Assembly (NCBI RefSeq): GCF_963675165.1
Contig: NC_087377.1
Location: forward strand, 11,580,632-11,644,631
Reading direction: 5' to 3'
From: Halichondria panicea
Lineage: Eukaryota > Porifera > Demospongiae > Suberitida > Halichondriidae
Length of the DNA stretch: 64,000 nucleotides
Positions 2,403 through 63,839 of the stretch are shown here, piece by piece. Both the position numbers and the translations under genes were made by a program. Position 1 is the stretch's first letter. Each line of letters starts with the position of its first letter. The notes beneath the pieces were generated by a model. That model was not told the DNA's origin and searched no databases. It was given only the letters and a program-made list of their open reading frames with translations.

Positions 2403-3994
2403 ATGACATTAGAGATAAAGCTCATTAGAGTTCTTCTGATTTGCTTTCTGGCTGGCTTCAGCACTGGTAAGACTGACTGTTCAATTATAGATTCCCTTAC
2501 ATTGACACTGCATTTTTATAAAGCCCAATATTCAGTGAGTGTGGAGAGACCATGTCCAATGGAAACAGTCACTTTTACCTGCACTGCTCCTGGAGATTCC
2601 TTGAGATGGGAACCGTCAGATGTTACTCGCATCACTATCCTCTCCACCTTGGATCTCAATGTAACACTAATACGATCAGGTTACACTGTAACACTGATTG
2701 CAGCCAATGACACTTCACTAACATCTACTCTGTCAAGGACAGCAGAAAATGGGATCACTGTGTCCTGTAGGGGTATTCGGACCATCATAGGATCTTCAAT
2801 AATTCGTTTGGCTGGTGATTGTCTCAACCCATTGTGTCCGTGCACAAGTTACAATATGTACTGCATAGATTCACCAGGACCACCTTCCACCATAAGACAC
2901 TCCACTTCAAGCAGCTCAGCAGATGGAATCAGCGTGACTGTTGGTTGGGACGCTCCTACTGAGACTGGTGGTAGAGATGACCTCACCTACACAGTGACCA
3001 TCTTACCTCCGGCCCAGCTCTCTGCTACTGTCCTCACATCCACCTCTGTCACTGTGACTGCTCAATACTATGTAGACTATAATGTCAGTGTTATGGCTAC
3101 CAACTGTGCTGGGAACAGTACAACTGCTGAGTACAACTTTAGGAGTGGTGAGTATATTTAATATATATATTTTTGACTGTGTCAACTCTTTCTCAGGTAA
3201 CTGTCCTATGTTGACCAATCCCATGAATGGAGCGTTTGGACAAGTCTCCAGCAGATTACCAGGATCCACGGTAACCATCCAGTGTGATGCTGGGTATGTA
3301 TCTGCTGTTACAATGGTGACATGTGAGGGTACACTGATGTGGAGTCCAGACCCTGAGGCTATTGAGTGTACATTACTAACCACACCTACTCCCACAACTC
3401 GTGAGTTAAGCTCTTGGTTGTAGGAAATTAATACAAAATATCTATGTTAATCATTACACAGCTCCTCCAATAAATTGCACAGCTTCACTACCCTCACCAC
3501 GGAATAGCATTATCAGTGATCATTCAGTACCAGCTATTCCCAGTACACAAGTTACCCTCCAGTGCGACGATGAACTGTTCCCTGAGGGAATAATGACTGC
3601 TACCTGTCTAGCTACAGGAAAGTGGGACGAGGAAATCGTCTGCAGAGGCAAGCGTATTCATTACTTGAATACACTTGTAATAATACTTCTCTCTTGAACA
3701 ACCTATACAGCCGCTCCTTTTAGTTGTGCCAGCCTATCTGATGGGAGTCGATTTGATGCAGCTGTCTCCATCGGCGTTGTTGTCACAGCAGTTGCGTTCA
3801 CAATCATTGGATTGTTGATAGGTCTCTTGATCATGTATTTGTTCATGCGTAAGAAGGCAGTATGCTCCCCAGCAGCTAAAGGACAAGCTAATGTTGGACC
3901 CACTGCACCAGCTGGTCCTGTTTATGAGGAGGTGTCACTCAAAGAAGAGATTGAACTGAATACTAACCAGGCGTATGGACCAGTAGGACAGTGA
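2403..3994 (+). CDS. Type A receptor: signal, Ig-like, FN3, two sushi, TM, tyrosine tail
   Basis: A predicted type I membrane receptor of 431 residues with an intact frame. Exons are 2403-2466 (signal peptide, ending LAGFSTG), 2536-2814 (Ig-like, ERPC...FTC...SC), 2869-3147 (FN3 with GWDAP and YTVTI), 3197-3400 and 3462-3647 (two sushi domains with the C-C-C-W-C pattern), and 3711-3994 (transmembrane helix, basic RKK stop and tail). All junctions are phase 1. The first intron (69 nt) and the second (54 nt) could be read through. The paralog at 7005 has the first intron with an indel and a stop, and a clearly non-coding second intron, so both are taken as real. The donor at 3648 is GC, not GT. 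The tail has YEEV and NQAYGPV and ends GQ where paralogs end GL. Surface recognition plus tyrosine-based signalling is inferred. Confidence 0.8.
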
Positions 3995-4198
3995 AACTTC
4001 TGTGTTAATGTGCATGCTCGTGAACGATTTTAAAAACTGTAAACAGCAACATCTGTTCATTAAAAGCCACTACATCTTTTGTATTAAAAAAGAAGCTATA
4101 TTAAACGAGTGGTGCGCTGTGCTAATGCCTCTCGCCATGTTTAGCTTCGCTCAATTAAGGCATTAGAGTGTTGTAATTATGTCATATAACACTCAAAT

Positions 4199-4282
4199 AC
4201 AAAGTATACTAATACCTCTTCTATGATTATAATTATAATACGATTATAGAAGAGGTATTTGTATGCTTTATATACTGTTAAG
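4199..4282. repeat. Imperfect palindrome in type A 3' flank
   Basis: Left arm tatactaatacctcttctat pairs with atagaagaggtatt on the right around an A/T-rich centre. A related hairpin sits in the same place downstream of the other type A gene at 15487-15560. It may be the end of a small element, or it may just be shared 3' flank. Confidence 0.5.
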
Positions 4283-4290
4283 TTATTATT

Positions 4291-4802
4291 ATGCCTCGGT
4301 GTGTATGTGCAAGCAAGGTATACGGCAGTGTGTGTTTGTATGTGTGCATGTGTGTATGTAGACTGCTACAGCTGCTCAAAGATCAATAAGCTGCAAGTAA
4401 GAGTTTCTATAGGGTTCTAGTAATGTTTTCATGGATTCTGATTCGTGGATTTCCAAAATAATGCTTCATTCTCGAGTTATGCCTAATTTTGGAATGCCAT
4501 TGCAGCCTTTCAGAAGAGTGCATGCGTAGCAAAATGTGTCCATGGAGTGTTGCTACTCAGTAGTTAGCTCTGTACTAGAACGCCTAGCTATTGGTAGCTG
4601 CAAGAGTGAGAAGAGAGCTGCAAGGCTCTATACACTGATGCAGCAGCCATAAACTTTGTACTTTTAGCATCCTCTTTAGCAACAATCATGATCAATCATT
4701 TCGATCCCACTCTAGATGCAAAAATATTCATCATGATAATCATATCACGTGTGTATTAGCAATATCAGCTAGTAGCTTTATGTTGGCACATCCACTGAGG
4801 CA
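4291..4802. mobile_element. MITE-like repeat, TGCCTCGGTG ends (copy 1)
   Basis: Starts at tgcctcggtg and ends at cactgaggca, an inverted pair. The 5' region (gcaagcaaggtatacgg, a GT-rich stretch, actgctacagctgctcaaagat) recurs at 15576, 47191 and, reversed, at 46286. No coding potential is seen. The region from 4803 to 5030 shows nothing further. Confidence 0.55.
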
Positions 4803-5030
4803 TCAGCACCCGCGGTGCTTTCATTATTGTTTGCAATTGTTGACAATGAATCCACACACAGTCAATAGAGGAGCTTAATGGCAACAGAAATCTATTATCT
4901 GATGGCTTGGTAAACTAGAGCACTAATTTAAAAGTGCTAACCCTCAGCTGTCGACATGAATCTATACAAACTTGAAGCGTGTTACACAATAAATGCAGAT
5001 GTATAATGTGTATATGTGTGTACATGCATG

Positions 5031-5290
5031 GACACAAAATGAGCTGTTTGAGCGAACTAGACACTTTCATAGGCTGCTTTAACTGCTGTACTTTATATAG
5101 TTGAAACTTTTAGGCGATCTTCGAAGGCGACAAACCAATCGATTTTAATCGTTGCTTTATAAATTCACGATCATAATTATAATTATTCCCCATAATGATA
5201 AACTCGTTACGGTAAAAAGTTATTGTATCCGTTTTGCTGCTATGCGATGAAGCTCAACACACAGGGTGAATGCTCTACTGAGTATTGTTA
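5031..5290 (+). promoter_or_regulatory. Relic type A upstream module
   Basis: Matches the upstream module at 1981-2270, then stops at about 5290 and runs straight into sequence matching the intron before the second sushi exon. The signal, Ig, FN3 and first sushi exons are missing between them. Confidence 0.55.
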
Positions 5291-5328
5291 TGAAAATTAA
5301 TACTTCCAACAGTATGTTATTTACACAG

Positions 5329-5880
5329 CTCCTCCAATGAACTGCACGGCTCCACTATCCTCACCAAGGAATGGCACCATCAGTGATCATTCAGTACCTG
5401 CTCTTTCCGATACACAAGTGACATTCCAGTGTGATGATGGACTCTTCCCTGAGGCTGAGGGCATAATGACTGCCACCTGTCTAGCTACAGGAGAGTGGGA
5501 CCAAAACCCAGTAGAGATCCTCTGCAGTGGCAAGTGTAGTCATTACTTAAAGTAATTATGCTTCTATATACCTTGAACCACTTATTACAGCTGTTTCTTA
5601 CAATTGCGCCAGCCTATCTGATAGGAGTCGATTTGATGCAGCTGTCTCCATCAGTGTGGTTGTCATGGCATTCTATTCACCGTCATTGGATTGTTGATGG
5701 GACTCTTTATAATGTATTTGTTCATGCATAAGAAGAATGTGTACTCCCCGTCAGCTAAAGAGCAAGATAATGTATAGGACCCACTACACCAGTTGGTCCT
5801 GTTTATGAGGAGGTGTCATCCATGTAGAGAGGAGATTGAACTGAATACTATAACCAGGCGTATGGACCAGTAGGACTGTG
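5329..5880 (+). pseudogene. Type A receptor 3' fragment (sushi 2 + TM/tail), broken
   Basis: A second-sushi exon (5329-5529, open, with a GC donor at 5530) is followed by a TM/tail exon from 5591. The TM exon has lost one base near 5669, which shifts the frame. It also has an in-frame TAG at about 5775 in the paralogous frame and small insertions in the tail region (gtgtcatccatgtagag and aactataaccag). The exons upstream of sushi 2 are gone, so this is a dead 3' fragment. Confidence 0.75.
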
Positions 5881-6002
5881 AAACTTCTGGTACTTTGTTA
5901 ATGTACATGTAACATAATTTATAGAGCATGTACTGCATCTGTTCATTATCAACAACTTAGAACAATGTAAACAGAGTTGTTGGCGTAAGTCATGTAGCTA
6001 CG

Positions 6003-6650
6003 TATATAGTCAAAGACTCACATTGGATTGTGTTGTTCTATTCTCCCTCTGAGGATCATTCTCTCTAGCAGCTGACATAGTGAGGTGAGACAGTCCACTC
6101 CAGCATACTGCACCAGGGCATTGTCACTGCTCTGGGGGTGGGTGGAGGGGTACATGTAATTAAGTGGAGTATATTATACAGATCTCGTTATTTATTGAAA
6201 TAGCTTAAATGTAGGAAACAAGGACAGAGCAACATTGAACACTCAAAGTAGTTGGATGCATGCAGTCACAGTACAATTACACAAATACAAGAAAATGTTA
6301 TGTGGAATCTACTTAGAAAATTTCTTGCAGTGTCAGCTTTTGAGGAAATTTAGGTGATCTAGCTGGCTAAGAAATATCAACCCACGCTATCGATAGTACA
6401 ACAACAACATCACTAAAGTAACTTTATAGACTTAGAGAGTATAGGGTCACCAGAGGATGTCCGACATGCGTGCATGAATAATTACAAGTGCTAGTGTATT
6501 TTTTGGATCACACAATGACATCAATGCACTGAACTTATAGTGATTCGTGCACGCATGTCGGATCTTCTCTGGGGTCATACTGAATGATACATAAGTATCC
6601 TTTATTCACCCATCTCACCAGTTTGAGCAGTGTCTCCATGAGGTTGTACA
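6003..6650 (-). pseudogene. Further exon-like fragments of the unidentified repeated gene
   Basis: 6010-6140 matches 306-410 and 45.28-45.40 kb. A short piece at about 6600-6650 (minus-strand ETLLKLVRW) matches the end of the 660-815 block. The stretch between holds no readable gene. Confidence 0.35.
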
Positions 6651-6656
6651 AGGTGT

Positions 6657-6683
6657 TCACACACACACACGCACACGCACACG

Positions 6684-7004: not shown

Positions 7005-7826
7005 ATGACACTAATAGAGATAATAAAGCTCATAGTTTTTTTGATTTGCTTTCTGGCTGGCTTCAGCACTGGTAAGACTGACTATTCAATTATAGATTTC
7101 CTTACATTGCTGCATGTTTCATAAAGCCCAATATTCAGTGAGTGTGGAGAGACCATGTCCAATGGAAACAGTCACTTTCACCTGCACCGCTGCTGGAGAT
7201 TCCTTAAGATGGGAACCGTCAGATGTTACTCGTATTCTTGTCCGCTCTGATCTCAATGTACCAATGACGTTATTTGGCTACACTGTGACACTGATTGCAG
7301 CCAATGACACTACATTAACATCTACTCTGTCAAGAACAGCAGAGAATGGGATCACTGTGTCGTGTGTAGATCCTGAGCCTACTGCGACCCTGATAGGATC
7401 TTCAATAATCCATTTAGCTAGTGAGTAATGTTTTTTTTTCTGTCTATAGGCCATTGTACCATCATATTCGATTTCTTATAGATCCACCAGGACCACCTTC
7501 CATAATAAGACACTCCACTTTAAACACCTCAGCCAATGAAGTCAGTGTATCTGTACAGTGGAACCCTCCTATTGAGAATGGTGGTAGAGATGACCTCACC
7601 TACACAGTGACCATATCACCTCTGGCCCAGCTCTCTACTACTGTCCTCACATCCACCTCTGTCACGGTGACTTCTCAATACAATGTCGACTACATTGTCA
7701 GTGTTGTGGCTACCAACTGTGCTGGGAGTAGTACAACAGCTGAGCATAACTTTAGGATTGGTAAGTATTATTGTTTTGTACACACAGTTTCAACTGATCC
7801 TCTCAGGCAGCTGTCCTGCATTGACC
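7005..7826 (+). pseudogene. Type A receptor, 5' half, interrupted by a 6.7-kb insertion
   Basis: Signal exon 7005-7071, Ig-like exon 7139-7420 and FN3 exon 7482-7760 are all open, with phase-1 junctions. The first sushi exon starts at 7807 (G-S-C-P-A-L-T) and is cut at 7826, after ttgacc. Reading on enters the inserted DNA, and the frame ends at about 7931. The missing part continues at 14538: 20 nt here plus 184 nt there makes 204 nt, the exact size of this exon in the 2403 gene and in the minus-strand copy at 33.4 kb. It was probably a full gene before insertion. A truncated soluble Ig-FN3 product is possible. Confidence 0.8.
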
Positions 7827-8279: not shown

Positions 8280-8807
8280 TTACAACACTTTTACTAAATT
8301 AAATTTAACTTTCTTTCTTGGCTCTTTGTTGTCCGCTTCTTTTGTGCTTTCTTCTTTTGTTTTTTTGGCTCTAAATCCTAGCAACGTGTAGTCTGGATTT
8401 AAAACTTCTGACACCTGGACATCGTATGTTTGGCTGAGCCTCACAACTTTCTTTAAATAGTTCTGGGCCTTTTTCTGAGACCCCATCGGAAAATAATGTG
8501 TTCCAGTATCATCTGCTGTTGTAAAATAAAATTGTTTTCCCTCAGTTCCCATCTTTACTAGCGACCCAATAGGAAAGGAGTTCCTGTGGTGCCTGATCTC
8601 TCGTAAGTCGGAGTCGATGTAGTACGGGTACGGGTGGAAGTGGCAGCAATTTCCCATCTCAATTCTTTCTCTGTTCTTTTTTGTATAGTAATTTACTGAT
8701 TCACATGACAGTAATAGCATGCAATCAATGGTAGTAAAGTGTGTCAAATGAATAGAGATAAAATCTTTATGGTCACTAATTATTAATCTTCCAGCAGACC
8801 TGTTCAT
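8280..8807 (-). CDS. Hypothetical lysine-rich protein of the 6.7-kb element
   Basis: An uninterrupted frame of up to 175 residues, not recognised. The C-terminus is strongly basic (KKTKEESTKEADNKEPRKKV), like a nuclear or DNA-binding tail. The middle contains YFTTADDTGTHYFPMG. An internal Met at 8657 (MGNCCHFHPYPYY) would give 125 residues and may be the real start, since the first 50 residues look less protein-like. The upstream ATG lies only 15 bp from the divergent chromodomain gene's ATG, so the two would need overlapping promoters. Confidence 0.45.
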   Translation of the reverse strand: MNRSAGRLIISDHKDFISIHLTHFTTIDCMLLLSCESVNYYTKKNRERIEMGNCCHFHPYPYYIDSDLREIRHHRNSFPIGSLVKMGTEGKQFYFTTADDTGTHYFPMGSQKKAQNYLKKVVRLSQTYDVQVSEVLNPDYTLLGFRAKKTKEESTKEADNKEPRKKVKFNLVKVL

Positions 8808-8822
8808 GCAGATCGACCTGTT

Positions 8823-9643
8823 ATGGACTCGTCAAAGAGGCAACGACCTGAGAAAGGATACTATTCCTACCTCCATAATATAAGCTCGGCTGACATGGAC
8901 TTATCTAGCATGCGGGAAGCACGAGATGTGAGAACCACTCTGAGCTGTAAGTCTGATGACAGTCTGCCAGAAGGGGTCTTCCTTGTTGAGAGGATAATTC
9001 ATCATCGACTAACTAAGGTACGTAACATTTTATGATATATAGCCCTATACGATTGATTCTATTTCTAGGGGAAAACGGAGTATTTGGTAAAGTGGGCTGG
9101 TTACTCATTGGAACAGTCTTCATGGGTCGCTAAGGAAGATGTGACTGTCTCTACTATCCAGTAAGATTATTAAGTATGGCATGGCAGTGCACTGTGTATT
9201 ACTATAATTATGCACATTTCCCCCCTTTCAGATCATACAATACACCACAAGCACCACATACCGAGCTTATAAGCGACGCAACAAGAAGATTTGTTCTGTC
9301 CATTCAATGTAGTTTAAATTTAGGTACTGTAAAATCCTGTAATTTAACTATAGATTTCCGGCTAGATGTATTTCGTTACCTATTTAAAGATCGAGGAACC
9401 CAAATGACCCGCGGAAAGCTCCAACTTCAACAAACTGATTTTAACGATGAATATTTTATAGGTAGTTGGTATATTTTGTATGATAGATATGGCAATGGCT
9501 GCACAGTAGATTTTCCTATTGTAGTATGTCCTAGAATTAAGTATGGACCGAAAACATATAGAAATAGCAATGGTGAAATGTTAGAGTCACCTAGACTACT
9601 ATCTGAAATTGTATGTGTAAATCTGGTGAAAAAACGTTGTTGA
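8823..9643 (+). CDS. Chromodomain protein of the 6.7-kb element
   Basis: Three exons (8823-9017, 9069-9160, 9232-9643) with clean GT-AG introns give 232 residues. Residues about 53-97 form a chromodomain: FLVERIIHHR, then KTEYLVKWAGYS, then SSWVAKEDV. It is split by the first intron after the RLTK turn. YLVKW and the later W are the usual aromatic-cage positions that bind methylated lysine. The C-terminal ~135 residues are not recognised. No reverse transcriptase or integrase accompanies it, so it is not simply the tail of a retroelement polyprotein. Its role may be chromatin targeting of the element (inference). Confidence 0.75.
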
Positions 9644-9931
9644 TCATTGTTAATTGTTAATTGTTAATGCATGCATGGCCCAACCTGAGCAGCCAATACG
9701 CACTATGTGACTCATAACTAACTGCTTCAGGCCAATTCTCTACCATAATGCTTTTAATGACTCTCAAACAAATGGCTGGGTCAACACGCATCCCGACTTA
9801 CAGCTAACCTTGTCAGCCTTCCATTAGAGAGCACGGATTTGCCTACAATTATACATAGACTATGTCATAGTTAAAGCTAGCACCAGATTTAAACATGAAC
9901 GAATGAATGTAAGACATAATTAGTCACATAG

Positions 9932-11058
9932 TCATTCAACATTAAGAGAAATGGTTTCTAAGCTAGGACGGTCATGAGCATGATAAGAAAGACATTCCTT
10001 AATTACATGGGCAAGTTCAGTTGACTTAATTACAATGGAGTTCATCTTCTTCATTATTCTACCTAATGAGTATATATCGCTCTGTGTGCTCTGTAAAACA
10101 AGCCCATCGCGGAGGTCTGGAGCTACTTGAGTGTGTTCTTTTATGTAAATAACTTTCTGTTCCTCGGTCAGGCAGTACTTCTTAGCATGCTTTTCTTTAC
10201 ATGCCTTTCCAAAATCCACAATACATGGCCGGATACATTCTAACAAAGTAGTCCCTAATACTACGTTGTCTACTTTAAGATCATTGTGAAGAATACTCAG
10301 CTTGTGCATGTATGATAGACCATCACAAATTTGGATCAGTATTTGCATCCATGTCTTAGGGCTTAATTTAATTTCGTTAGTCGAATACAAGGCAGAATAT
10401 AATGAAACTTGTTGCTGCTTCACGCTTACATTAGACATTACTAAAGCTCTCCTGGTGGAACAAATACCAAAACAGTGTGGTATATAAGGGCTGGAATTTA
10501 ATGTAAGTAATATACTGGCTTCATGCCTAATCGATTCGATTGAGGAGTCGGAAGTAAATGTTTTGACACAGACGTCAAAACACTCTTTAAAAATCATACG
10601 AGAGCATGTTCCAAACCGACCATTTCCTATATGAACATCACCACCCCCATCTGCTAAACATTTCTCACTTATCTCTGGAACTACAGTAACTCCTCGCATA
10701 ATATCAGCATTCGTACACATTCTTGGAGTTGCCTTGGGTAGACTGATTGCACTCGTCTTCATGGCTGCTGTTAGTAACTTTAGTGGTCGTTGGTGACTGC
10801 AGGATGTTCCCAGAGTTCCTGTCCGTAATTGCTTAGCTCGATACACGTTGAGTTCCCTGTATGAACAATATTATTTACTGGCTGTTAATCAGCAACTTAC
10901 AGTTTATAATCTATTGCCTTCTTCTTCCAATTCTGAACATTTTTCTCGGCACATTCAAGGCTCTTCTTCTCCATACACAGCTGCTTGCCAATTTTGTCAA
11001 CTCTAGCTTTTCGATTGAGCCTCTTGAGCTTGGATCTTGAGAATGTCTGGTCAGCCAT
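9932..11058 (-). CDS. Protein kinase-like protein with basic helical N-terminus
   Basis: Two exons on the minus strand (11058-10901 and 10856-9932) joined by a 44-nt intron give 360 residues. The first ~55 residues are Lys/Arg-rich and probably helical (SKLKRLNRKARVDKIGK, ENVQNWKKKA-like). The kinase fold follows: glycine loop IGNGRFGT, VCVKTF lysine, RHEAS for the helix-C glutamate, LHNDLKVDNVVL as the catalytic loop, VDFGKA as the metal-binding DFG, and VAPDLRDG in place of APE. HRD is HND here; the aspartate, the asparagine and DFG are present, so activity is possible. It lies head to head with the transposase-like gene (215 bp between starts). Confidence 0.75.
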
Positions 11059-11272
11059 TTTGTAATAAGTCTAAGAGAACCAGAGGTCGCAAAATACCCG
11101 CCATAATGCATCTGAGAAGTGTTATCATGCTATTGAATGAGTACTGTGGTTAATTTAGTGGGTGATAACACCGCAGCCTATTCACCCACCTACTCATATT
11201 GACATGGCTAATTAATTTTGTTACATAACAGCTCAAGGGACCTTTTGTTCCATTATCCCGGGCCTCCTAGCT

Positions 11273-13850
11273 ATGGCAGTAAACAAGCAGTCCAGAAGAG
11301 CAGAGAGCCTGTCCATCACCATCTCAAATTCAGCAAAGAAGTACTCTGACTTCAGCCACACAGAACCACAAGTACAGCCAAACTTCTCTCTCTCTATTCC
11401 TATCGAGTTGCTGCATCATTGGTACATGAACAAGAAGGCAGAAGAGACATTCATTAGCTTAGTTAATAGCATGGTAACAATAGTTAAACTAGCACAAAGC
11501 GATCGTCTGGAGAAAAGGCTTGCAGAACAAGCTAGCAAGGTAGCAAGAAGGATACGGGGGCTAAAAGGAAGAAGGAGGTATGCCGTACTTGCTGGAGAAT
11601 ACAACCTCTTCGTGCTTGATGGAGAAGCAGAATCGTATTCTGAAATTGAGCAGCAACTATCCACTGAATCTCCACAGCCAACAACAATCCCCGAAACAAG
11701 TAGACCTACCACAGCACACATCAACAAAGGCAAAAAAGTTCACGAGGTATCACCACGACAGGTAAAACGAAAGCTAGCACACTGTAAGAGCTCTGCAGAG
11801 CAAGCGCTTTGGTTTTGTGAATCATTCGGTCTTCAGCCAGAATCTTTAGAGCTACGCAAACAGACAGGATCTCCCATCAAATTCAATTTTTTATCTAGCC
11901 CATCTCACAAGCCACAACATCAAACGCCAGCTCTTTCACCAAACGATTCTGCGAGGGTACAGCAAGCTCTTTATGTACTTGACAGGTTTGCTGTGAGTGA
12001 CGAAGCTTATCATGAATTGAGCGTCGCATCTGATTTACCACCACTGTACCGAATCAAGGATGCTCGCCTCTCAATTAACAACTCTCTCGACATCCGACAT
12101 CTCGAAGGTCCTTATCCTGGTGCTTATAGACCACTGAAAGCTGCAATCCAGGAAGAGCTAGCTAAGATCGTAAGTAAAGAAGAAATTATACATTATTATT
12201 ATGGATTATTATTTTAGGTTCATTCAGGGAAAGCTATCACCCAACCAGTAAAAGTAAAACTCAGTGGTGACGGAGCCAGATTCACAAGATCATCCAATAT
12301 CATACTTCTCTCATTTGCATTTCCAGAAATTCAAGACAATGTTTTATCAGGCATGGGTAAGCTTAACAATAAAAATATTAAACGAGAAAGTGGTGAAAAT
12401 ATTTTTATATTGACATTCATACAGGCAATCATACTTTTGCTGGCCTAAAAGCCGAAGAGTCGTATGAAACAATTAGTTCAGGACTATCTGAGGTATTGAA
12501 GGAGTTGAACGACATCATTTCACACCCACTACTCACTGTTGATGAAACAGAGTACCGCCTTGAGTTTTTCCTGGGTAGTGATTACAAGGTGAGAATGTAT
12601 AGTTAATTACTGACTATAAAAATTGCATTATTAGTTTCTTTTACTGAGTATGGGCCTCAACAAAGCAACCTCTATGTACGCTTGTGTCTGGTGTACCATC
12701 AAGAAGGATGAAAGGTATATCTATAATTATTATGCTTAAACCTAGCTTCCCCATTTGCCGCTATAGGTGGGATATGTCAAAGGATAGGGCTGACTACACC
12801 GTAACAAATGCAAGAACATTGAGTTCCCTACAAGCAAAAGGCGCACTTCCCAGCAGTAAACCAGCAAGTGTACGACTAGGATCAATTACAACACCACTAC
12901 TGAACATAGAGCCAGACCATATAATACCCGATGAGCTACACCTACTCCTACGTATAGCTGACGTTTTAACAAGAAATCTCATTCTAGAGATAGTGGCATC
13001 TGCTAAACAAGACAGACAAGGAAACGCACATATACTCACTCACCTACAAACACTACAGACGATCGTTAAAGACTGTGGTATCACGTTCAGGGTATGGGAA
13101 GCAAGGGGTCCAGATGGCAAAGCTTCTGGACATTACGAATGGACATCACTGCAGGGGAACGACACCAAGAAGTTTCTGGAACGTCTCCCAGTGAGGTTTG
13201 CTGACCTACTGAAGGAAGAAATTCAAGCTAAAATGGCCCAACTTTGGACAGTGAGTACTAATTAAATTTCCCTTCGCATTTTACAAACATAATTATTTAT
13301 ATGGTCTGGCTCTGTAGGAATTTCTCTCTTTGTATAAGATGGTTTCTAGCTGGACTCCACCTCCCAGTGAAGTGGTTGAGCAAAAGGTATAGTGTTAGTT
13401 TACTAGTAGGGAGAACCATTGTATCTAATTTACTATAATCTATCATGATAGGCGAAAGACTGGATAAGGCTTTTCTTGAGCTTGAAGCACAAGTGTCAAG
13501 GGTTTCAGGAAAAGAATATTACGCCCTATATGCACACACTGGTCTTTCACTTCCCTTACTTTATTTCAAAATACGGAAATGTCAAGATGTTTAGTGGACA
13601 AGGTGAGTTCGAGTGTAAAGAGATAACATTTTAATCACCTTTTTCTCTAGGGGTGGAGAAAAATAATGATGACGCCAAGAGACACTACTTCTCCAGTAAT
13701 CTGCATGACCCAGTGGGGGAGGTTCTGAAAGCTGAAGCGAGAATAGACGAGACATCACAATTTAAGCGAAAGAAACGAAAGTACATACGAAAAACTCCAT
13801 TAGATTTAGTAGACATGAACAAACAGCCACGACTTGACTCTGAATCATGA
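11273..13850 (+). CDS. Transposase-like protein, eight exons
   Basis: Eight exons (11273-12169, 12218-12356, 12425-12588, 12635-12714, 12767-13250, 13318-13386, 13452-13602, 13651-13850) give a continuous frame of 727 residues. Landmarks are VKLSGDGARFTRSS, GNHTFAGLKAEESYE, a CVWC knuckle (ACVWCTIKKDERWDMS), DELHLLLRIADVL, then MHTLVFHFPYF and GQGVEKNNDDAKRHYF, with a basic tail (KRKKRKYIRK). I recall this arrangement from multicopy uncharacterised proteins of corals, sponges and some fungi. GDG, DELH and VEKNN could hold a D-D-E type triad (inference). No named superfamily is claimed. The N-terminal third has a basic helical stretch (RLAEQASKVARRIRGLKGRR). Confidence 0.65.
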
Positions 13851-15985: not shown

Positions 15986-16430
15986 GCATCAGCACCCGCG
16001 GTACTGTTGTAATTGTTGACAATGAACTATAGAAGAGGGAAACAGAAGTCTATCTATCTGATGGCTTGGTGAACTAGAACACTGAAGTGCTAACCCTCGG
16101 CTACTGACATGAATCTATACAAACCTAAAGCGTGTTACACAATAAATGCAGATGTATGTATGAGCATAAAAGCTGGCTAGTAAGCAGCAAGTAACAAGAG
16201 CAATGCGTTTTAGTGGTGCATGAGACATGCACTGTGGACTAGAATCACATCAAAGTCAGCAAAGAAACCTGGAGTCTTGTGGCTCCTGATATGCTCTGGA
16301 GCTAAAGAAGCAACAAACTACAATTCTAGCTTTCTACTTTAGGGACCCTGTTCCATTGCTCCTTGAGCTGATGAGATACAAAGATGTATACTCACAGTTA
16401 TTTTCTGACCGTCCCTATATATAATTATAG

Positions 16431-53443: not shown

Positions 53444-54593
53444 AACTCGCTTATTTTAATATTCAATAGCAATCAACAAGTTAATTGCAATCATTCTGGC
53501 ATTTTGTTTGTTTTATAGAACTGTAATTATATATATAGACTCGCTAGTGTTTTGATAGTGTAGATTAATTGTCTCAAATTACATTTATATCACCGTTATT
53601 TTTTGCTGTAAAACCTGTCGTTATTATGTAAGTTTTCTGACTTCCTCAATCAGAAATAGAATAAAGTGGTGTGGTTTCTTAATGAATCAAGTGATCAAAC
53701 TCGACAGTTATTATAACTACGCCTCGGTGTGCAGTAGTATGTGCATTATATATACCCTAGCTTTCAATATAATCTATTGTTTTCATTGCAGCTTTCATTA
53801 TTCAGTATCGGATACGTAATGTTGACAATGTAAACAATAACACTGCATCTGTTCATATAATTATTTAAACTGATGAACAAAGAGTAAGAAAAAACAACAA
53901 TTAAGAGAATTAATTATATATATACAACAGTTACTGTTCTGTCAGATTCCTGCAGCAAATATAACTTATTGTAATTTTTTTACACCAGCACTAAAGCTTG
54001 TCAGGAAATAAGCCATGCAGAAGAAATCTCAAAAAGATACTCACCCATTTTAGCTTTCAGTACAATTTTCCTGTAATCAATTATCTATTACTGAATTGCA
54101 CCTCATATCATAATTATTGTCATCCGGAATTTGAACTCCTCTCTGCAACGTACATTTGCATGTATGTGCTTTTTGATTTCTTTACAACTGTTGGACAGTC
54201 TAATCAACTTCAACATAAACACCATTCATGGTGTTTCTGGTGTTTCCTATGCAAACAATTTTATATTGAGTAGTGAGAAGCTGAATGTATAGACACACAG
54301 TTCATTGTGTTGGTTTAATTGGGACTGAACTGATCGAACACTGAGAATAAATTATTATAATTTATAGGGCATGTATAGCTGTTGTATATACATCATAATA
54401 ATATATAATTATTGTCACCTGCAGTTTCCCCAACCAAAGGAATTGATATAACATGCATGCAGTATTATTCTCTGTGGCACTGAGACATCTATGTAATTAT
54501 ATACATAATATACCAAAATTGTAATTATATAGTCCTATGAACCGACATGTACAATGTATAGTGCAGCATCATAAAAACACTAAATGACAATTC

Positions 54594-56161
54594 TTACAGT
54601 CCAACTGGTCCATATGCTTGGTTAGTATTCAGTTCAATCTCCTCTTTGCATGACACTTCTTCATAAACAGGACCAGCTGGTACAGTGGGTCTTACGTTAG
54701 CTTGTCCATCAGCTGATGGGGAGTATACTGCCTTCTTATGAGAGCAAAGGTACATCACTAGGACTCCAGTGAGGAATCCAATGATCATAAACAGAACTGC
54801 CATAACAACCACACTAACAGAAACAGCAATTCCAAGGTCAGTACCAGTGAATAGAGTTTGGGATTGATCTGTATATAGGTGGTTCAATATATATACATGC
54901 AAGTAACGTAAACACTAACCTTTGCAGACCGTTTCCCCTGGATTCTTGTCCCACTCTCCTGTAGCTAGACAGGTAGCAGTCATTATCCCCTTAGGGAACA
55001 GTCCATCGTCACACTGAAAGGTCACTTGTGTACCAGGAATAGCTAGTACTGAATGATCACTTATGGTACCATTCTGTGGTGAGGATAGTAGAGCTGTGCA
55101 CCTCATTGGAAGAGCTGGAATTATCGTGAAAAGTAAGCATATAATTATGCACTTACAAGCAAATTATTATTACGGCTCACGAGTTGTGGGGGAAGGTTGG
55201 GTAAGTTGGCTACACTCAGTAGTCTCAGGATCTGGACTCCACATCAGTGTACTCTCACATGTAACCACTGAAACAGCAGATACATACCCAGCGTCACACT
55301 GGATGGTTACTATGGATTTTGGCAATCTGCTGGACACCGGTTTCAAAGGCTCCGTTTGTAGAGTTGGTCAACATAGGACAGCCGCCTGAGAGGGAATCAG
55401 ATATTAATGTGACTGTATGTGTATTCAATAATATTGATACTTGGCAGCTCTTACCAATCAAAAAGTTATACTCAGCAGTCGTACTGTTTCCAGCACAGTT
55501 GGTAGCTACAACACTGACAGTGTAGTCCAGATTGTATTGAGCAGTCACAGTGACGGAGACAGTAGCAGAGAGCTGGGCCGGAGGTGAGATGATCACTGTG
55601 TAGGTTCGATCACCAGTCTCAGTAGGAGGGTTCCAACCAACAGTTACACTAACTTTATCGGCTGAGCTACTCAGAATTGAGTCACTGAATCCATTTGGTG
55701 GTGTGGTAGCTGTAGAAAAGTATTATGCTTTGCAAAACTTGCTTTGCATGCATAATTATAATCTCACTTGCTGTCAGTATAGTTAGTTCTTCCCTCAACT
55801 CAGGCTGCAATAAAGGAAGACAACTAATAGTGATTCCCTCCACCGTAGGGAAACTCAAACTGGAGGTGATCGCTGAACTAGTAGAATTAAACATGATAAA
55901 TGTAACGGTGTACTGATCTCGTTGGAATGGAAGTTCTGTTATGCTATCAAGTATCAAGTCTCTTGTTGGATCAGGTACGTCCCATTCCAGCAAAGCCCTA
56001 GGCACTGTACAAGTGAGTGAGATCACATCTCCAGCACAGGGGGTCTCAGTGTAGTCACGAGTCAGACCACCTAGCACCAAGGGTACACCTTTAGGAAGGA
56101 GATCTAGAATCAGATTTACAAACATGGACACTATAGACTCTAGTATAGGCAGGATACCCAA
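54594..56161 (-). pseudogene. Type A-like receptor, minus strand (copy 2), sushi 1 frameshift
   Basis: Exons on the minus strand: 56161-55768 (N-terminus and Ig-like), 55709-55455 (FN3, 12 nt shorter in frame than copy 1), 55385-55181 (sushi 1, 205 nt, one base too many at ttgaaaccgg), 55114-54920 (sushi 2), 54868-54594 (TM/tail, open: VVVMAVLFMIIGFLTGVLVM, SHKKAVY, VYEEVSCKEEIELN, NQAYGPVGL). The lesion differs from copy 1. Skipping sushi 1 (phase 1-1) would restore a receptor. Confidence 0.75.
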
Positions 56162-56456
56162 CTTTATTTTCTCTCAATTTCAAGCTACCCTATAACTATA
56201 ATTATTCTCAGAAATCTGGGGAATTTGGATAACAACGTAAATGATCCAGTGCATGACGTTTTATTTCTTCAATCTCACGTATCTATACTCATAGTACATA
56301 ATTATACAGTATCTACAGTTCAGGCCCTACTGTTAGCAGTGAAGATGACCATCTATAGCCTTGGCAAAGCCGAAGAAAAATAGCTCATAGAGTGAAGTGC
56401 TACAACAAACCTACATTTACTAATAAGTCAATTCTTTTGTACAGCTATAGCTCTGC

Positions 56457-56514
56457 TAGCCTCGATTCAAGGCCGCTTTAGAAGCGCTTCTAAAGCGGCC
56501 TTGAATCGAGGCTA
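56457..56514. repeat. 58-bp perfect palindrome with 9-bp target duplication
   Basis: Two 29-nt arms, tagcctcgattcaagg... and its exact complement, meet at gaagc|gcttc. Flanked by tagctctgc at 56448-56456 and 56515-56523. The equivalent site in copy 1 (about 34664) is empty, with a single tagctctgc, so this is a real insertion after the duplication. Confidence 0.95.
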
Positions 56515-57142
56515 TAGCTCTGCATGTGTACATGCATGCACACTGAATTTATAGCTACTTTGTCTGTATTAATTGTTTGAAGAAATGTTCAGTTTTACGG
56601 AACATGTTACAAGATAAGTTTGCACATGCGTAAACAGTCAGTAGCCCTTTCTTCACTCGAGGCTTGTGGAGGAGGCTAATTGCATCTCTGATAAGCTAAA
56701 AGAAAAATCTTCCCTCTGACTCCCTTACTTAATTCATCTTCCCCAATAGCCATTAATCCTACGGTCATATTCATTTGCAAAATAATGATTTCATAAGGTG
56801 AAACATGCAACACGATTGTTCATTTGAGGGTACTTTTAATTTTGATCTCTCTGATCTGTTCTTACAGTGAATATTAATACCTATACACTACAGTGACTTA
56901 CCAACCACTAAAACCCAAATAGTTCTAGATCTAGCCTCAGCTTGTGTCATCAGAGTCGTTATGAAGATGCATGGGGAGGATCTAAAGGTTACTTATAACC
57001 TATATAGAAGGTCTCGATAGAAGGTAGAAGATGGGCTCTTTAATGTTTCTCTAGATCTAGACTACACCCACAAATTTAACACAAGCAATTTAGTGGTGTT
57101 TGTGTTCTTAAAATGTTATCTAGATTCTGCAATAGATCTAAA

Positions 57143-59354
57143 ATGCAAGTAAAAGCAGTTACTATTATTCAGTTGTTTGCTGTTGCTGCAGGTAGGACTT
57201 ATATAGGTATAATTGTGTGTTCATGCACTAGAACCTTGACTATAGCTATCCTTATTTTTGTATGCAGCCACACTGACATCCACCTCCACTGTGTCCTGTC
57301 CTGATGACACTGTCACCTTCACCTGCACTCTGCCTGGTAGTGTCATACGATGGACGGTCACTTCTCCACAACTACAAGTATTCACCATAACTTTAGACAC
57401 CAGCAACATTGATGTCACACGAGGTAATCCAGCATTCCGTGGTGTTCTCACTGACTCCAGTGGACCTCTCACTGCCACTCTCACCTCACTGTCTGAGGCC
57501 TCTATTGTAGAGGGTACTATGGTGTTGTGTGAGGGAGAGAACTCAAGAGAGGGTCCTCTTACCATCACTGTGGCTGGTGAGTTGACTGCTCTTTGTTTTG
57601 TAACATTATATAAAAGTGTGGAACAAGTGATTAATATACCCACATGCAGATCCACCCTTACGTCCACTCAATTCAAGAGTATCCTCTACTCTAAACCAAC
57701 TCAGCTCCTCTATTATCACTCTGGACTGGGATCCTCCCTCCTCTACTGGTGGTGTGTCAGTCAGCTATGTCGTCACCATCTCCCCAACAACTCTCTCCGA
57801 GTCACCAGGCATCGTGGAGACCACCTCAGCACAGATAACTGTTTCCTACAACACTCCCTACAATATGACCATCAGAGCTGTCAACTGTGTTGGAATGAGT
57901 CAAGAGAGTTTAATTGAGGATCTGAGTAAGCCATTTCATGGTCATAATATTATACAACAATCAGATATACTTTTAATTAATGCAGTTGTGTGCCCCACAC
58001 CGTCTACTGCTGTTGGTGTTACTATCACCAACACACCTCCTGTCACTATTGGTGGATCCATGCTCACCTTCACTTGTAGTAGAGATAGTGAAGTGAGAAC
58101 CTCAACCTGTGGCAGTAGCGGGTGGTCTCCTGACCCTGGGACCTTTGACTGCAGCAGTCCGAAAACAGGTATCAACATGGGCAATTAACTCTCTAAAAGG
58201 AATGTTGATCTCATGCATTAGATCTCCAAGTCACCTGTGGTTCTCCTGCTGCACCGTCTAGAGGCAGTTTGGACATCAATGGTGGGACACCACCCTTCTC
58301 ACTGGGTTCACAGGTCATCTATCGTTGTAATGAGGGACTGTTCCCTCCTGATGTGAGGACCAGCACATGCACTGGTGTGGGGGATAGGGGAGAGTGGGTG
58401 GACACTCCTGGGAGCTTGGTGTGCAGAGAGAGGCCAGGTGAAATGTAGTTGGGCCAAGCCAACTTCTAGGCAGGCCGGTAAAAAAATCTGGAGAGTGGGA
58501 GTTTTTAGACTCTTAAATTGTTAGGCTTCCTACACCACACTGAGTTTGTGGTAACCTTATGGAGTGGGTGGTTGTGGGTGTTTTTCTAGCAAAAAGTGAC
58601 TCGCTTGCATTCGTGGAGCGTGTAATTAAGTTGGCTTGGCCTTGTTCAGAGGGTTTTTGATTTCCTTCATTCTTTAATTTCTGTGAATTGTATAAGCTTA
58701 CGTACACTGCTTTCGTTCCACACTTTCTTAGTATTCAATGGCAGGTTATTGGATGCTCGTGTTGAGCTGATTGAGATACAAACATGTATTCATAAAGTCA
58801 TTTTCTGACCATCCCTATAGTGAACTGTTCTCTTCCTGCTGAGCCCTGCAATGGTGCTATAGTGGACTATGAGAGGTTGAATGAGACAGTGTTGGAGGGA
58901 ACAGTGCTGACCTACCAGTGTGACAATGGATTCTCACTGACTGCATGGACCCAACACCATCACTTGCACTAATGCTGGAGTCTGGAGCACTGAGCCAGAG
59001 GAAATCATGTGTGTACTTATGACTGAAGGTGATGGATGAGCTTTGTAATTGTTTGCTTATCTACTACCGGTATTCCATCTCGTAGTTTCTACTGTTGCTC
59101 CTTTGTTCTCCACTTCTGCAACTGTCGCTATCAGTGTGGTCATCACTTTCATTGTCACTCTAGTCATTGGATTCCTCACTGGACTCCTAGTGATGCATGT
59201 TTTCTCTCGTAAGAAGGCAGTATACTCCCCAGCAACTGAAGGACAAGCTAACGTAGGACCCCCTGCACCAGCTGTTCCTGTTTATGAAGAGGTGTCACCC
59301 AAAGAAGAGATTAAACTCAACACAAACCAGGCGTATGGACCATTAGGACTGTAA
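57143..59354 (+). pseudogene. Type B receptor (copy 2), damaged in sushi 3 only
   Basis: Exons: 57143-57191 (MQVKAVTIIQLFAVAAG), 57268-57576 (Ig), 57650-57925 (FN3), 57986-58168 (sushi 1), 58231-58437 (sushi 2, intact here), 58821-59028 (sushi 3, 4 nt too long: ctgactgcatggaccc for ctgactggaccc), 59086-59354 (TM/tail, PLGL end). The single lesion is in a phase 1-1 exon, so skipping would leave an intact 430-residue receptor. Copy 1 has the opposite pattern (sushi 2 broken, sushi 3 fine). Confidence 0.7.
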
Positions 59355-59920
59355 AACTCATTCACTATAATATTCAATAGCATTCAACAGGTTAATTGTG
59401 ATTATTCTGCCATTTCATTTGTTTTATAGGCCTATGTATAGACTCGCTACGTGTTTCATCTTGCCTGGAGATTGTCTCAATTGCATTCTCTATATAATAC
59501 AGGCAGGAGGTTATTTTTACTGTAAAATTTGCCATTGTTATAACGTACTAAAGTGGTGTGCTTCTTTTGAACCAAGTGATCAAACTCGACAGTTATTATA
59601 ACTACGCCTCGATGTGTGGTAGTATGTGCATTACACCCTAGCTTTCAGCTATTGTTTTCCTTGCAACTTTCATTATTCAGCATCGGATATAAATGTATAT
59701 ATTATGTATACGTAATATTATTCATTGAGAACAATGTAAACAATAGCACTGCATCTGTTCACATACTTAAACTGATCGATATACACAATCATGTATGTAT
59801 TGAAATAAGAGAATATTAATTATACAAATGTACCTGGAACTGCCCTTGAGCTTGAGACAGTGTGTACTGTTCTGTCCAACTTGCCCAGATTCCTACAGAG
59901 TTCGTTAATTGAACACACTC

Positions 59921-60044
<124 letters not shown>

Positions 60045-60084
60045 TTTCAGTGGTGTCTCAACCCATACACTATCACTAGAGTTA

Positions 60085-60689: not shown

Positions 60690-61140
60690 CACTGATAATT
60701 TTATTGTTACTCTGGAGTAGGACCTCCTTCCTGAAGGTCTGTTAAACAGCCAACTATAATTATGTACATAATTATGTCCTCATCTCCCTAACACCTCTCT
60801 CTAAGTCACCAGTCACTGTGGAGACCATCTCGGCACAGATCACTATCTCCTACAACACTCCCTACAATGTGACCATCAGAGCTGAGAGCTGTATGTACTA
60901 TAATGTTGAATAGAAGACAAATTTTGAATCTGAGTAAGCCAGTATAATTATCATTTTCCTCTTTACTGCCGGCTGCTGTGTGTCCCACACCATATGACCA
61001 TCACCAACATACCTCCTGTCACGATTCATGGATCCATGCTCATCCTAATTCAGTCACTTGCAATGGAGACACGGGAATAAAGAACCTCAGCATTCAGCAG
61101 TATAGCGGGTGGTCTCCTTAACACTGGGACTTTTGATTCA
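60690..61140 (+). pseudogene. Decayed FN3 + sushi 1 fragment
   Basis: Recognisable pieces: ttattgttactctggagtagg, acacctctctctaagtcaccagtcactgtggagacc, ccctacaatgtgaccatcagagc, then gtgtcccacaccatatgacc and gggtggtctcc. Many stops and indels. Confidence 0.65.
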
Positions 61141-61199
61141 CTGCCACATATCATCTATTATTCAGCTCTAGGTAGCAGGGCTGCTGCCTTTGGACCTAG

Positions 61200-61882
61200 C
61201 TATATAGTTGGCTGTTGGAGGTGTTGTGTTGGCGTTCTGTTTGTGGGGGTACTGATTGTTGTAGAGCTCATAGTTGTTTGTTAATCACCAAGAACTTGAA
61301 AAGTGGAGGTTATGGAAGGATGCATGCATGTTTACGATTGTACAAATCATTCAATTTCAATTTTGTTTATGACAAGTGAGACAATGGAGATTTTTAATGA
61401 CTAACTTGCTCTGGAGGCCACATTGAGTTGCAGTCGAATCAGGCTTATATTTTTGAGAAATCAAATAATTATATGCTACTTGATCTTGATTGCGAACTGT
61501 TTGTTTACTTATCAATATAATGGTCATGATTGCATTCATCTTAATTGTCAACAGAACAGTATCCTTTATGATCACAACAGCTGGCTAAACAAACACTAAC
61601 AGGTTACTCAGCCCACAGCTATTTACTGAAGTTAGCAATTTAGCAAATGTTTCATTAACGATCTTTACTTTTTGAAAACTTCTTCAGGACAACTCTACAG
61701 ATAATTATAGCAGATATAGGGTATGGTAAACACAAGGTTAATATTAGATCTCAATTAAACTTTTTTTCGTATGCCCACACTGACAATAAACCCACTGTCT
61801 CATGACTGGAGAAGTATGATCTAATCTAGGCAATAGGTAAAGATGTCACATTTTGCTTTTGCTAAATTTGCCCTGTTAAATA
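61200..61882. other. Repeated inter-gene segment
   Basis: Third copy of the segment seen at 28.44-28.95 and 38.11-38.85 kb. It has extra aatt at about 61470 and 61688 and catgcatg at about 61322 compared with the 38-kb copy. No gene. Confidence 0.45.
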
Positions 61883-62515
61883 ATGGTGAACTTGTTGGTG
61901 ATAAGCATCTTCTGTTAACAGTGATGATTGGCTCTCAGATAGGAGGTATGAATGCAAAACAAGATTGTGCTTCATGTGTGATTGAAACTGTTCCATTTCA
62001 ACAGAGGCCTTATTAGTGTCCAACACGAGTGTGGCGTGTCCCTGGAGAGGCAGTTTTGTTCACATGCTCTAAGCCTGCCGCTGTACTGAGATGGCAAGTG
62101 GATCCTCTAGCGAAGTCTGGGTTGATGTCAGTTCAAAGTACACTCTTTATTGGTTCTTAAGTTGGTCGAAGGGACACATTTAAGTTAAACTTATAGACTT
62201 TTATTGCACATGCATAGGTAATTCAACCTCTCCATTAAACCCAAGAATATCCTCCACTCAAAACCAGCTCAGCTCCTCTCTTGTTATTCTGGACTGGGAG
62301 TCACCCTCCTCTACTGGTGGTGTGTCTGTTAGCTATATATCCTCGTCATTTCCCCAACACCTCTCTCCAGGTCACCAGTCACCGTAGAAAGTCAAACCAC
62401 CTCGGCACAGTTCAATATCTCCTACAACATTCCCTATAACGTGACCATCAGAGCAGTTAACTGTGTTGGCAGTAGCCGTGACAACATGGTGATGATCCCT
62501 TCTATTGGTTAGTTC
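61883..62515 (+). pseudogene. Type C receptor 5' fragment
   Basis: Signal-like ATG at 61883 now reads into a stop. The Ig exon from about 62006 has an extra C (gtgtccctggag), an in-frame stop in gttcttaagttgg and a large internal deletion. The FN3 part (from about 62220) begins in the correct frame but then has insertions (gtagaaagtcaaacc, tatatcctcg). Same layout as 29.01-29.84 kb. Confidence 0.7.
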
Positions 62516-62732
62516 ATATACTGTATATAGCCGGTAATTTTCGGGGGACAAAATATTCGTGGTTTTCGTGGTTGAAGCTCTGACCATGAATATTTTACCC
62601 ACGAATGAAGCGACCTTGACTACCTTTACCTGCAGTGCAATCAGCAACGACGAAAATATTATCCATGAAATGTCTAAATATTGCTGAACCACGAATACTT
62701 TGTCCCCCAAATATTACCCGCTATACGGTATA
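62515..62732. mobile_element. MITE, TATAGCGGGTA family (copy 4)
   Basis: Orthologous in position to the 29851 copy. ctgtatatagccggtaattttc pairs with attacccgctatacggta. Confidence 0.75.
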
Positions 62733-63784
62733 TGATTGTCTTAGTTGCGCTCGTTACTACCGTACTCTATCGAGATTACGCCCACGTCCGAAATTACGAC
62801 CCACTGCTTCTTTTGAGTGAAAGTTCCTGTATAGGCTAATTTGCTTCAAGAATACGCCCACAAAGAATTGATGCAAACTTGTCAGCGAGCAGTTTATAGT
62901 TGACAAGAAAGGTTTAGAAGTTTCTTGTGTAAGCTGGTTACTGAAGATAGCTACGTAGATAGTTAGATCCAATGATTATTACTCCTATTCGCAAGTATAA
63001 GAGACAAAGACAATCTTCTCTGAATCTCTGTAGACGACTTTTCTTCAGCTACTATAATTATTGCAAGCACTTGGCATGCCCCAGAAAATAGGCGTAATTT
63101 CGAAACAAAACTACCTTTTTCGAAATTAAGCCTACCTACCTGTAGCTGCTGTGTAGCATGCAATTAGGGTGGGCGTAATCTTGGTAGAGTACGGTAATAA
63201 TTTTAACCACTAACCACCGCTTATCAATGCAAACGGTCACGAGACCGCTGCACAAGTAGCACTATAGCTATTTGTTAGCTACAAAGAACATTTCGCTGAA
63301 AGCTGCATGCATGTACTGCCAGAAGCAAGCCCTTATGAACTCTGACCTCATTTCAGATACACCCCTTTTCGAATTTTTGAGCGGAAATGCAAAATACTTA
63401 TTTAAACTTCTACATTGTAGATCTATAATTATAGCTACATGCTAGTTCTGTCCTCCTTGAAGAGATCATTCATCAAGCCATATCAGATATAGACTTCTGT
63501 GCTGCTCTTCTATATTAAAGTGTGTATGCATTCAACAATAATTACATGATTATACAAAGCAAACTACCTCTTCTAATACTTTTTGAGCGAAAGCAAATCA
63601 TGGTGAGAGGCATTAGCCCAGCACAGTTTGCAACACTCGTTATTCTGGCATTTTGTTTGTTTTATAGATGTGGTTTTCTTTAACATTCTGATGTGGTTTT
63701 TCTGACTTCCTCAATAGAGGGTGTGTTTCATATCATAGGTAATCAATAAACTTGCTGTTGTACCAGCTAGCTATAGCTCCTGCA
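62733..63784. other. Duplicated intergenic DNA
   Basis: 62733-63200 matches 30060-30540 (intron of the 29-31 kb pseudogene). 63650-63784 matches the region just upstream of the 39368 gene (gatgtggtttttctgacttc, gtaccagctag) and probably contains the promoter of the next gene. Confidence 0.5.
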
Positions 63785-63839
63785 ATGCAAGTACACACAG
63801 TTCTTATTATCATCATCCAGCTGTTTTCTCTTGCTGCAG
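63785..63839 (+). CDS. Signal-peptide exon of a further type B receptor (partial)
   Basis: 55 nt, phase 1 donor (gcag|gtaagtt). It encodes MQVHTVLIIIIQLFSLAAG, close to the 39368, 35285 and 57143 signal exons. The Ig exon is not found in the remaining 160 bases, so the gene continues past the window or is broken. Confidence 0.6.

Follow-up and report, generated by a model that had tools for sequence, protein, structure and literature searches.

A 64,000-nucleotide stretch of the sponge Halichondria panicea (contig NC_087377.1, positions 11,580,632 to 11,644,631; hereafter the window) lies within an array of receptor-like genes that comprises some 200 gene copies in one 3.7-Mb stretch. The genes combine an immunoglobulin (Ig) domain with fibronectin type III (FN3) and sushi domains, a transmembrane (TM) segment and a short tail with two tyrosine motifs, VYEEV and NQAYGP (the class A tail). 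We consider this to be, more likely than not, a germline-diversified array of immune-type receptors with a variable, V-like head and a phosphotyrosine tail. What the analysis shows is the clustering and common architecture, the predicted V fold and its variable face, the constraint on the tail motifs, the mosaic histories of the exons, and the pairing of two further tail classes, B and C.

Read in six frames, the window contains 13 tails, of which 11 lie on the plus strand and two on the minus strand. NQAYGP is readable in all 13, each time followed directly by L or V, and VYEEV in 12; it is missing from the copy at 20.7 kb, and the copy at 5.8 kb has stops around it. The initial annotation, which had reported thirteen tails that keep both motifs, is confirmed on this point. 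It had also described many of the genes as broken, and they are: a full exon set is present in four window genes, a fifth (54.6-56.1 kb, minus strand) has one shortened exon, and a crude splice script gave an uninterrupted spliced protein model for three of these five. A 7-kb block is present twice, at 31.1-38.1 and 52.9-59.9 kb.

Exons were mapped with eleven query domains in 200 kb around the window, in the window itself and in six 3-kb loci; loci L007 and L008 were left out as repeats of L006. Two main gene types are seen, both about 2 kb long with a separate exon per domain. Type 1 has the order Ig1-FN3-sushi-sushi-sushi-TM/tail, and type 2 the order Ig3 (or Ig2)-FN3-sushi-sushi-(sushi)-TM/tail. 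The mapped DNA holds 56 units, many of them truncated or split, a count that includes some fragments or repeat modules of one tail. Pfam places fn3 and Sushi above cut-off in some of the submitted exons. The splice boundaries are phase 1: 189 exons out of 213 have an AG near their start in the phase-1 frame, and the corresponding counts for the other two frames are 39 and 61.

The exact NQAYGP codon pattern has at least 217 matches in the genome of 131,455,214 bases and none in the reversed control, an excess over chance. Such genome pattern counts are lower bounds, and places are known for the first 100 of the 217. Because a few tails carry two or three copies of the module, including one at 11.480 Mb with three, tails with exact NQAYGP are slightly fewer than 217; tails of other wording are outside this count. 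With the tail protein as query, 149 of the 150 scored candidates (299 in total) fall between 11,249,229 and 14,927,785 of the window's own contig, C1, and one falls on C7. As the tails span about 3.7 Mb of C1, the window is about one sixtieth of the cluster. The repeated modules are 18-residue repeats, triplicated or duplicated in L006 (C1:11478685-11481701, minus strand) and near position 8098 of L025. Ig1-like exons also occur beyond the main cluster, at C1:9.87-9.98 and 10.42 Mb, at C6:2.31 and 2.35 Mb, and on C32. This last contig is 5 kb long and has a single Ig exon; it matches other Ig and FN3 copies at 82-90 percent, which does not establish it as a haplotype. A dispersed single receptor copy on C7 adjoins a NACHT (NLR-like) gene (L029, C7:3594001-3604000, at 4391-6316 and 8635-9999).

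The Ig exon is predicted to encode a V-like domain of the V set: the predicted structures of two Ig types resemble T-cell-receptor and antibody V domains, in agreement with a V-set definition of nine strands, B-F cysteines and a C-strand Trp. Variation between copies falls mainly on the CC'C'' side, which resembles the complementarity-determining regions, and on the FG loop; the remainder changes little. V domains bind with this side. The face was defined after inspecting clade IG1_a, so the fair tests are those on IG1_b and IG3_main; the alignment is uncertain in the indel-rich part. For IG3_main, none of 123 circular shifts was as good as the chosen face.

Exons of the same gene have different histories. 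Among type-1 genes the median DNA difference is 0.505 for Ig, 0.180 for FN3, 0.158 for the first sushi (up to 0.480), 0.099 and 0.083 for the later sushi exons, and 0.118 for the tail; these comparisons, and those of substitution rates below, use near-full exons only, 16-21 genes per exon within a type. The earlier statement that ectodomains diverge thus applies to the Ig exon and partly to the first sushi, but not to FN3 and the later sushi exons, which are about as similar as the tail. Type-1 gene-pair distances in the front exons fail to predict tail distances (rho 0.00 for Ig, -0.03 for FN3 and 0.01 for the first sushi), which argues that front and back halves have recombined. Neighbouring exons do correlate (Ig-FN3 0.37, FN3-first sushi 0.55, third sushi-tail 0.43, TM-tail 0.56). 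The genes at 11,532,713 and 11,760,970, for example, are far apart in Ig (0.52) and the first sushi (0.44), and nearly the same in the third sushi (0.01), TM (0.00) and tail (0.01). In type-1 pairs of the 0.4-0.8 bin, silent divergence (dS) is 1.47 for Ig and 1.11 for the first sushi against 0.19-0.35 for FN3, later sushi and tail; exons of one gene differ in age. Type 2 is less mosaic, with every exon correlation between 0.35 and 0.73. On these distances the exons of type-1 genes have been reshuffled, and symmetric phase-1 exons permit such recombination.

To follow the tail, we used a tree of 42 of the 54 tail matches, those with at least 80 percent query coverage. Silent and replacement changes, counted by parsimony, stand at 14:2 in VYEEV and 21:2 in NQAYGP, at 21:20 in the stretch between them, at 15:12 in RKKAVY, at 29:103 in the linker before VYEEV and at 61:148 in the TM part. 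The two motifs together thus have 35:4 against 29:103 for the linker (P 1.4e-14), and by this measure they are under constraint at the protein level. Among the 42 tails, YEEV is kept in 42, the N at -3 of the second tyrosine in 42, the A at -1 in 41 and the G at +1 in 41. The tyrosine codon of YEEV is invariant even silently, and other motif codons do vary. KKAVY, which the initial annotation took as equally invariant, is not: it is exact in eight of the 13 window tails, the others reading KKAVC, KKAVH, LMKAVY or broken. The juxtamembrane tyrosine is replaced by C, H or F in 7 of the 42 tails, with no silent and four replacement changes, and therefore lies outside the invariant core. What remains of the earlier description, a cluster of Ig/FN3/sushi receptors that change while their two-tyrosine tail is constrained, is upheld by the cluster mapping, the exon mapping and the substitution counts.

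Public relatives number 167 by protein search and 496 by profile search; our class A set consists of the 158 proteins listed among these matches, four of which are encoded in the window. YEEV is present in 149 of the 158, N-x-A-Y-G in 143 and both in 136. The first tyrosine could be used as an anchor in 151, where E, E and V follow in 149, 148 and 148, and N, A, Y and G stand at +14, +16, +17 and +18 in 148, 146, 145 and 138; the second motif was counted here without prior demand for N or for Tyr/Cys. One public tail whose best match in this genome is 67-69 percent identical reads VYEDV and NKAYGQ, so both tyrosines are kept beyond this genome with small changes around them.

The immunoreceptor tyrosine-based activation motif (ITAM) has the consensus YxxL/I-x(6-8)-YxxL/I. 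The pair in class A had been called ITAM-like, a label we reject: the spacer in the window tails is 13 residues, and among 107 public proteins with both motifs the tyrosines lie 17 residues apart in 104 and 18-19 apart in three. The inhibitory counterpart (ITIM), with the consensus (I/V/L/S)xYxx(I/V/L), occurs within the last 45 residues of six of the 158 listed public class A proteins and is lacking there in the other 152. A hemITAM has acidic residues just before YxxL, and no acidic run precedes the tyrosine in class A window tails (PAGPVYEEV, for example). Proline stands at -2 of the first tyrosine in 149 of the 151 anchored public tails, where the anchor allowed P, S or T. YEEV would suit SH2 domains of the Src type, whose ligand is pY-E-E-(I/V), as in pYEEI. 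The classic PTB ligand, NPxY, has Asn at -3 and Pro at -2 of the tyrosine; the second class A tyrosine has Asn at -3 in all 42 tails but Gln, not Pro, at -2 in all 42. We take NxAYG to resemble IRS-type PTB ligands such as the IL-4 receptor site. The genome has at least 71 SH2 matches, some with internal stops, and at least nine PTB/PID matches. Three SH2 matches lie within 6 kb at C2:7250187-7256049; their open frames are 406-417 residues long, and SH2 kinase genes may be clustered there.

Two other tail classes occur on C1. Class B has at least 15 matches in 14 places, all found in C1:13.88-14.49 Mb, and class C at least 21, all found in C1:11.45-14.49 Mb. At 14.49 Mb (L031) the Ig-FN region of a class B gene is 41 percent identical to that of the neighbouring class A gene, and the gene facing the class B gene carries a class C tail. 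For ten of the 14 B loci a C locus is found no more than 6 kb away, in tail-to-tail orientation; random placement of 14 B loci, with orientation ignored, puts a mean of 3.6 near C and a maximum of 10 in 2000 draws. Because the pairs are block duplicates, they are not 10 independent events. Both classes repeat an N-x-[AS]-Y-G module, as RLKANLSYGEV and METNHSYGLA in class B and as VELKANESYG in class C, where most longer public tails also have IELKSNQSYGQL or a close form; the class A counterpart is IELNTNQAYGPL. An ITIM-consensus hexamer is present in 11 of 12 listed public class C tails (VLYDEV in ten, VSYDVV in one). VLYDEV is similar to the VYEEV of class A. Because VLYDEV fits the ITIM consensus and PVYEEV does not, opposite signalling by classes A and C may be offered as a guess. 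In L034, class B and C tails (4795-5397, minus strand, and 936-1511, plus strand) both end in EYDY (EYDYVDNEL, EYDYIYVD), which in class B we take to be a possible YxN-type adaptor site.

The mechanism we infer is as follows. The genes, strings of phase-1 exons in a very large tandem array, would be expressed as single-pass surface receptors, each with a signal peptide, a single V-like Ig and a single FN3 domain, then two or three sushi domains, a TM segment and a short tail. The V-like domain would be the recognition head, varying at the CC'C'' side and the FG loop. Ligand binding would lead Src-like kinases to phosphorylate the tyrosines of VYEEV and NQAYG, phosphorylated YEEV being read by SH2 domains and NxAYG by SH2 or PTB domains, in the service of an immune or self/non-self role. 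Gene duplication would create new specificities, as would, in type 1, the joining of varied Ig-to-first-sushi halves to shared sushi-TM-tail halves, so that diversity builds up in front while the signal is kept. Classes B and C, with their repeated N-x-[AS]-Y-G, may signal differently from class A, in the manner of paired receptor families.

Several results weigh against a diversified immune-type array. Pfam finds no Ig family in the Ig exon or in the Ig-FN open reading frames of L031, and no significant match comes from a sequence search of PDB with the Ig (the best, at E 0.11, is an antibody single-chain variable fragment); because both searches are negative, the V assignment leans on predicted models compared with an antibody-rich library. 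For IG1_b, 7 of 122 circular shifts are as good as the chosen face. The ratio of replacement to silent rates (dN/dS) on the Ig face is 0.57-0.85 with dS raised too, and for the whole Ig exon it is below 1 in every bin except the smallest (dS below 0.08), where values of 1.01 and 1.03 come from 3 and 2 pairs only. Many copies are broken, the coverage-based choice of 42 tails may favour intact ones, and YEEV and YGPL/V also match endocytic YxxPhi signals. Strong positive selection on the whole Ig is not seen outside that smallest bin, and since whole-Ig values are mostly below 1 and the face values come with raised dS, positive selection is unsupported. At overall dS of 0.2-0.8 (two bins), dN/dS is 0.37-0.62 for Ig, 0.46-0.54 for FN3, 0.31-0.64 for sushi and 0.38-0.47 for the tail, and for TM it is 0.71-0.79 in type 1 and 0.34-0.36 in type 2; the pairwise cells are not independent, and the bin above 0.8 is one pair. 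The contrast between Ig and tail proposed in the initial annotation is weakly present over bins 0.08-0.8 (0.37-0.62 against 0.24-0.47), which is not decisive. A strong contrast in constraint is found only at the motif level in the tail and between the Ig face and framework.

A narrower possibility is that the array is a sponge allorecognition locus, reading self and non-self between individuals as do Hydractinia Alr or Botryllus fuhc. The available parts of the literature describe the Hydractinia complex as one large region with discrete clusters of single-pass receptors of the Ig superfamily and many pseudogenes (PMC11067881), with ITIM/ITAM-type motifs in Alr (PMC12065747). The sponge array is alike in having a single region of clustered Ig superfamily receptors with pseudogenes and tyrosine tails, as judged from architecture and layout; it is unlike in having FN3 and sushi after a single Ig and a non-ITAM tail spacing. 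Botryllus FcoRs are described, in the part of PMC12065747 available, as having a variable-type Ig, sushi, TM and a tyrosine tail of ITIM/hemITAM type, with 53 loci and adjoining partner genes. The V Ig, sushi, TM and tyrosine tail, the large family and the side-by-side partners recur here, again in architecture only. FcoRs differ in having two C2 Ig domains and canonical ITIM/hemITAM, where the sponge genes have FN3 and an NxAYG tail. We rejected FcoR membership on architecture: FN3 is present, the mapped exon order has no second Ig, and class A has no hemITAM. The FN3-sushi stalk, copy number and non-ITAM tail set the array apart from both Alr and FcoR. The tail-to-tail pairs at 10 of 14 B loci and the ITIM-consensus hexamer in 11 of 12 listed public class C copies, against 6 of 158 in class A, also favour allorecognition; some 200 copies fit recognition of pathogens or microbes equally, and we hold an allorecognition locus to be possible but doubtful. 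In its fullest form, a tentative proposal that we would not put above this, the 3.7-Mb array might be a sponge self/non-self complex of about 200 germline V receptors, with reshuffled recognition halves on few constant signalling halves, an N-x-[AS]-Y-G code in three tail classes and opposite-facing B/C pairs possibly of opposing signal. If true, V-domain receptors with tyrosine tails, serving allorecognition or immunity, would go back to the base of the animals.

Alternatively, the proteins could be adhesion or cell-identity molecules for tissue building, their diversity serving cell sorting rather than immunity. The Ig-FN3 architecture is common among adhesion proteins. Duplication, pseudogenes, exon reshuffling and variation focused on the V face are, on the other hand, traits of immune-type families, and we find adhesion unlikely. 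The tail motifs might instead be sorting signals (AP-2 YxxPhi, NPxY-like) on receptors that mainly capture and take up ligand; YEEV, YGPL and YGPV all fit YxxPhi, and NQAY is an NxxY. YxxPhi needs only the tyrosine and the +3 residue, yet N, A and G around the second tyrosine are kept, and classes B and C share the N-x-[AS]-Y-G module with varied +3 context, which makes this quite unlikely as well. A tail kept uniform by gene conversion or recent copying, its motif free of functional constraint, would suit the low tail DNA distances and discordant exon histories, and is very improbable given the 35:4 ratio of frequent silent to almost no replacement changes, which rules out a homogenisation artefact, and the 67-69 percent public tail that keeps both tyrosines.

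The preferred immune-type reading also has parallels in NITR and KIR/LILR, clustered and fast-duplicating V/Ig receptors with similar ectodomains and different tyrosine tails. The class B and class A genes of L031, 41 percent identical in their Ig-FN regions with different tails, are alike in this respect; class A, without ITAM or ITIM, and the FN3/sushi stalk are not. Other sponge recognition families are aggregation factors, TIR-Ig receptors, NLR and SRCR expansions, as given in the available parts of PMC12909245, PMC10855680 and PMC5450542; these too serve recognition but have different domains. For Dysidea avara, PMC12909245 reports 564-637 V-set and I-set sequences, and no V-Ig/FN3/sushi family with a two-tyrosine tail is described in the available portions of this or the other papers. 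A literature search, with subscription journals mostly outside its coverage, found no paper describing such a family. The available part of a 2025 review states that the proteins proposed for allorecognition in sponges, cnidarians and ascidians are not conserved, yet that those of cnidarians and ascidians converge on signalling of ITIM/ITAM type; it names no sponge receptor there (PMC12065747). With its V-like heads, sushi/FN3 stalks and constrained tyrosine tails, an array in a sponge would supply the third case that is missing beside cnidarians and ascidians. It offers defined exons for typing grafted individuals and defined peptides for SH2/PTB tests, and its exchange of front and back exon blocks would be a germline route to multiply V-domain specificities.

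The individual copies, in window coordinates and on the plus strand unless stated, are as follows. An apparently intact type-2 gene at 2403-3994 (exon mapping, Pfam, splice model) has its signal peptide from 2403 on, Ig at 2491-2814, FN3 at 2869-3147, sushi at 3197-3400 and 3462-3653, and TM/tail at 3762-3994; the ATG at 2403 in an open frame is preferred as its start, the script-chosen signal peptide at 1735 looking wrong. At 5331-5881 lies a truncated gene of sushi and a broken TM/tail exon with internal stops, in which VYEEV and NQAYGP are readable. Exon mapping places at 7114-7768 the Ig exon and the FN3 exon of a type-2 gene, and two sushi exons and a TM/tail exon (LMKAVY...VYEEV...NQAYGPV) lie at 14535-15301; these may be parts of one gene with about 7 kb of other sequence between. 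That 7.8-14.5 kb stretch, perhaps an inserted element, holds a protein-kinase open reading frame at 9932-10870 on the minus strand (Pfam Pkinase, E 5e-22) and two long ones, at 11216-12217 and 12648-13265 on the plus strand, with no Pfam match. A 5'-truncated copy at 16430-16950 has sushi and TM/tail exons only, and at 17593-20729 an Ig-FN3-sushi-sushi-sushi series is followed by a tail remnant at 20.7 kb, with NQAYGP readable and VYEEV lost.

The type-1 gene at 25762-27768 is apparently intact by exon mapping and splice model, with signal at 25762-25822, Ig at 25888-26223, FN3 at 26276-26548, sushi at 26605-26781, 26839-27045 and 27254-27457, and TM/tail at 27509-27768. Another type-1 gene, at 29136-31675, has its second sushi exon split and reads 10 residues beyond the usual stop after GPLGL. 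A type-2 gene (Ig2) on the minus strand at 32798-34299 has a frame break in its TM exon and the tail VYEEV...NQAYGPV; its near-copy at 54594-56089, also minus and Ig2, has an intact tail, a shortened FN3 exon and no complete splice model by the script. The type-1 gene at 35405-37536, with six exons nearly full length, likewise gave no complete splice model, and its near-copy at 57267-59354 has a frame break in the third sushi exon. The duplicated blocks are at 31111-38077 and 52908-59898 (both plus), 96, 94 and 89 percent identical in three pieces. An apparently intact type-1 gene at 39480-43420 has its TM/tail exon 2.2 kb downstream (43164-43420). A mosaic or broken gene at 50610-53443 combines an intact tail with pieces of Ig, FN3 and sushi that are duplicated, and FN3 fragments of a further copy lie at 60773-62491.

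Elsewhere in the genome, pointing to a siliceous demosponge, three silicatein-type active sites (DCGASYAF; none in the control) lie within 11 kb at C2:656915-667884 (L032, L033), and two of the three continue silicatein-like in translation.

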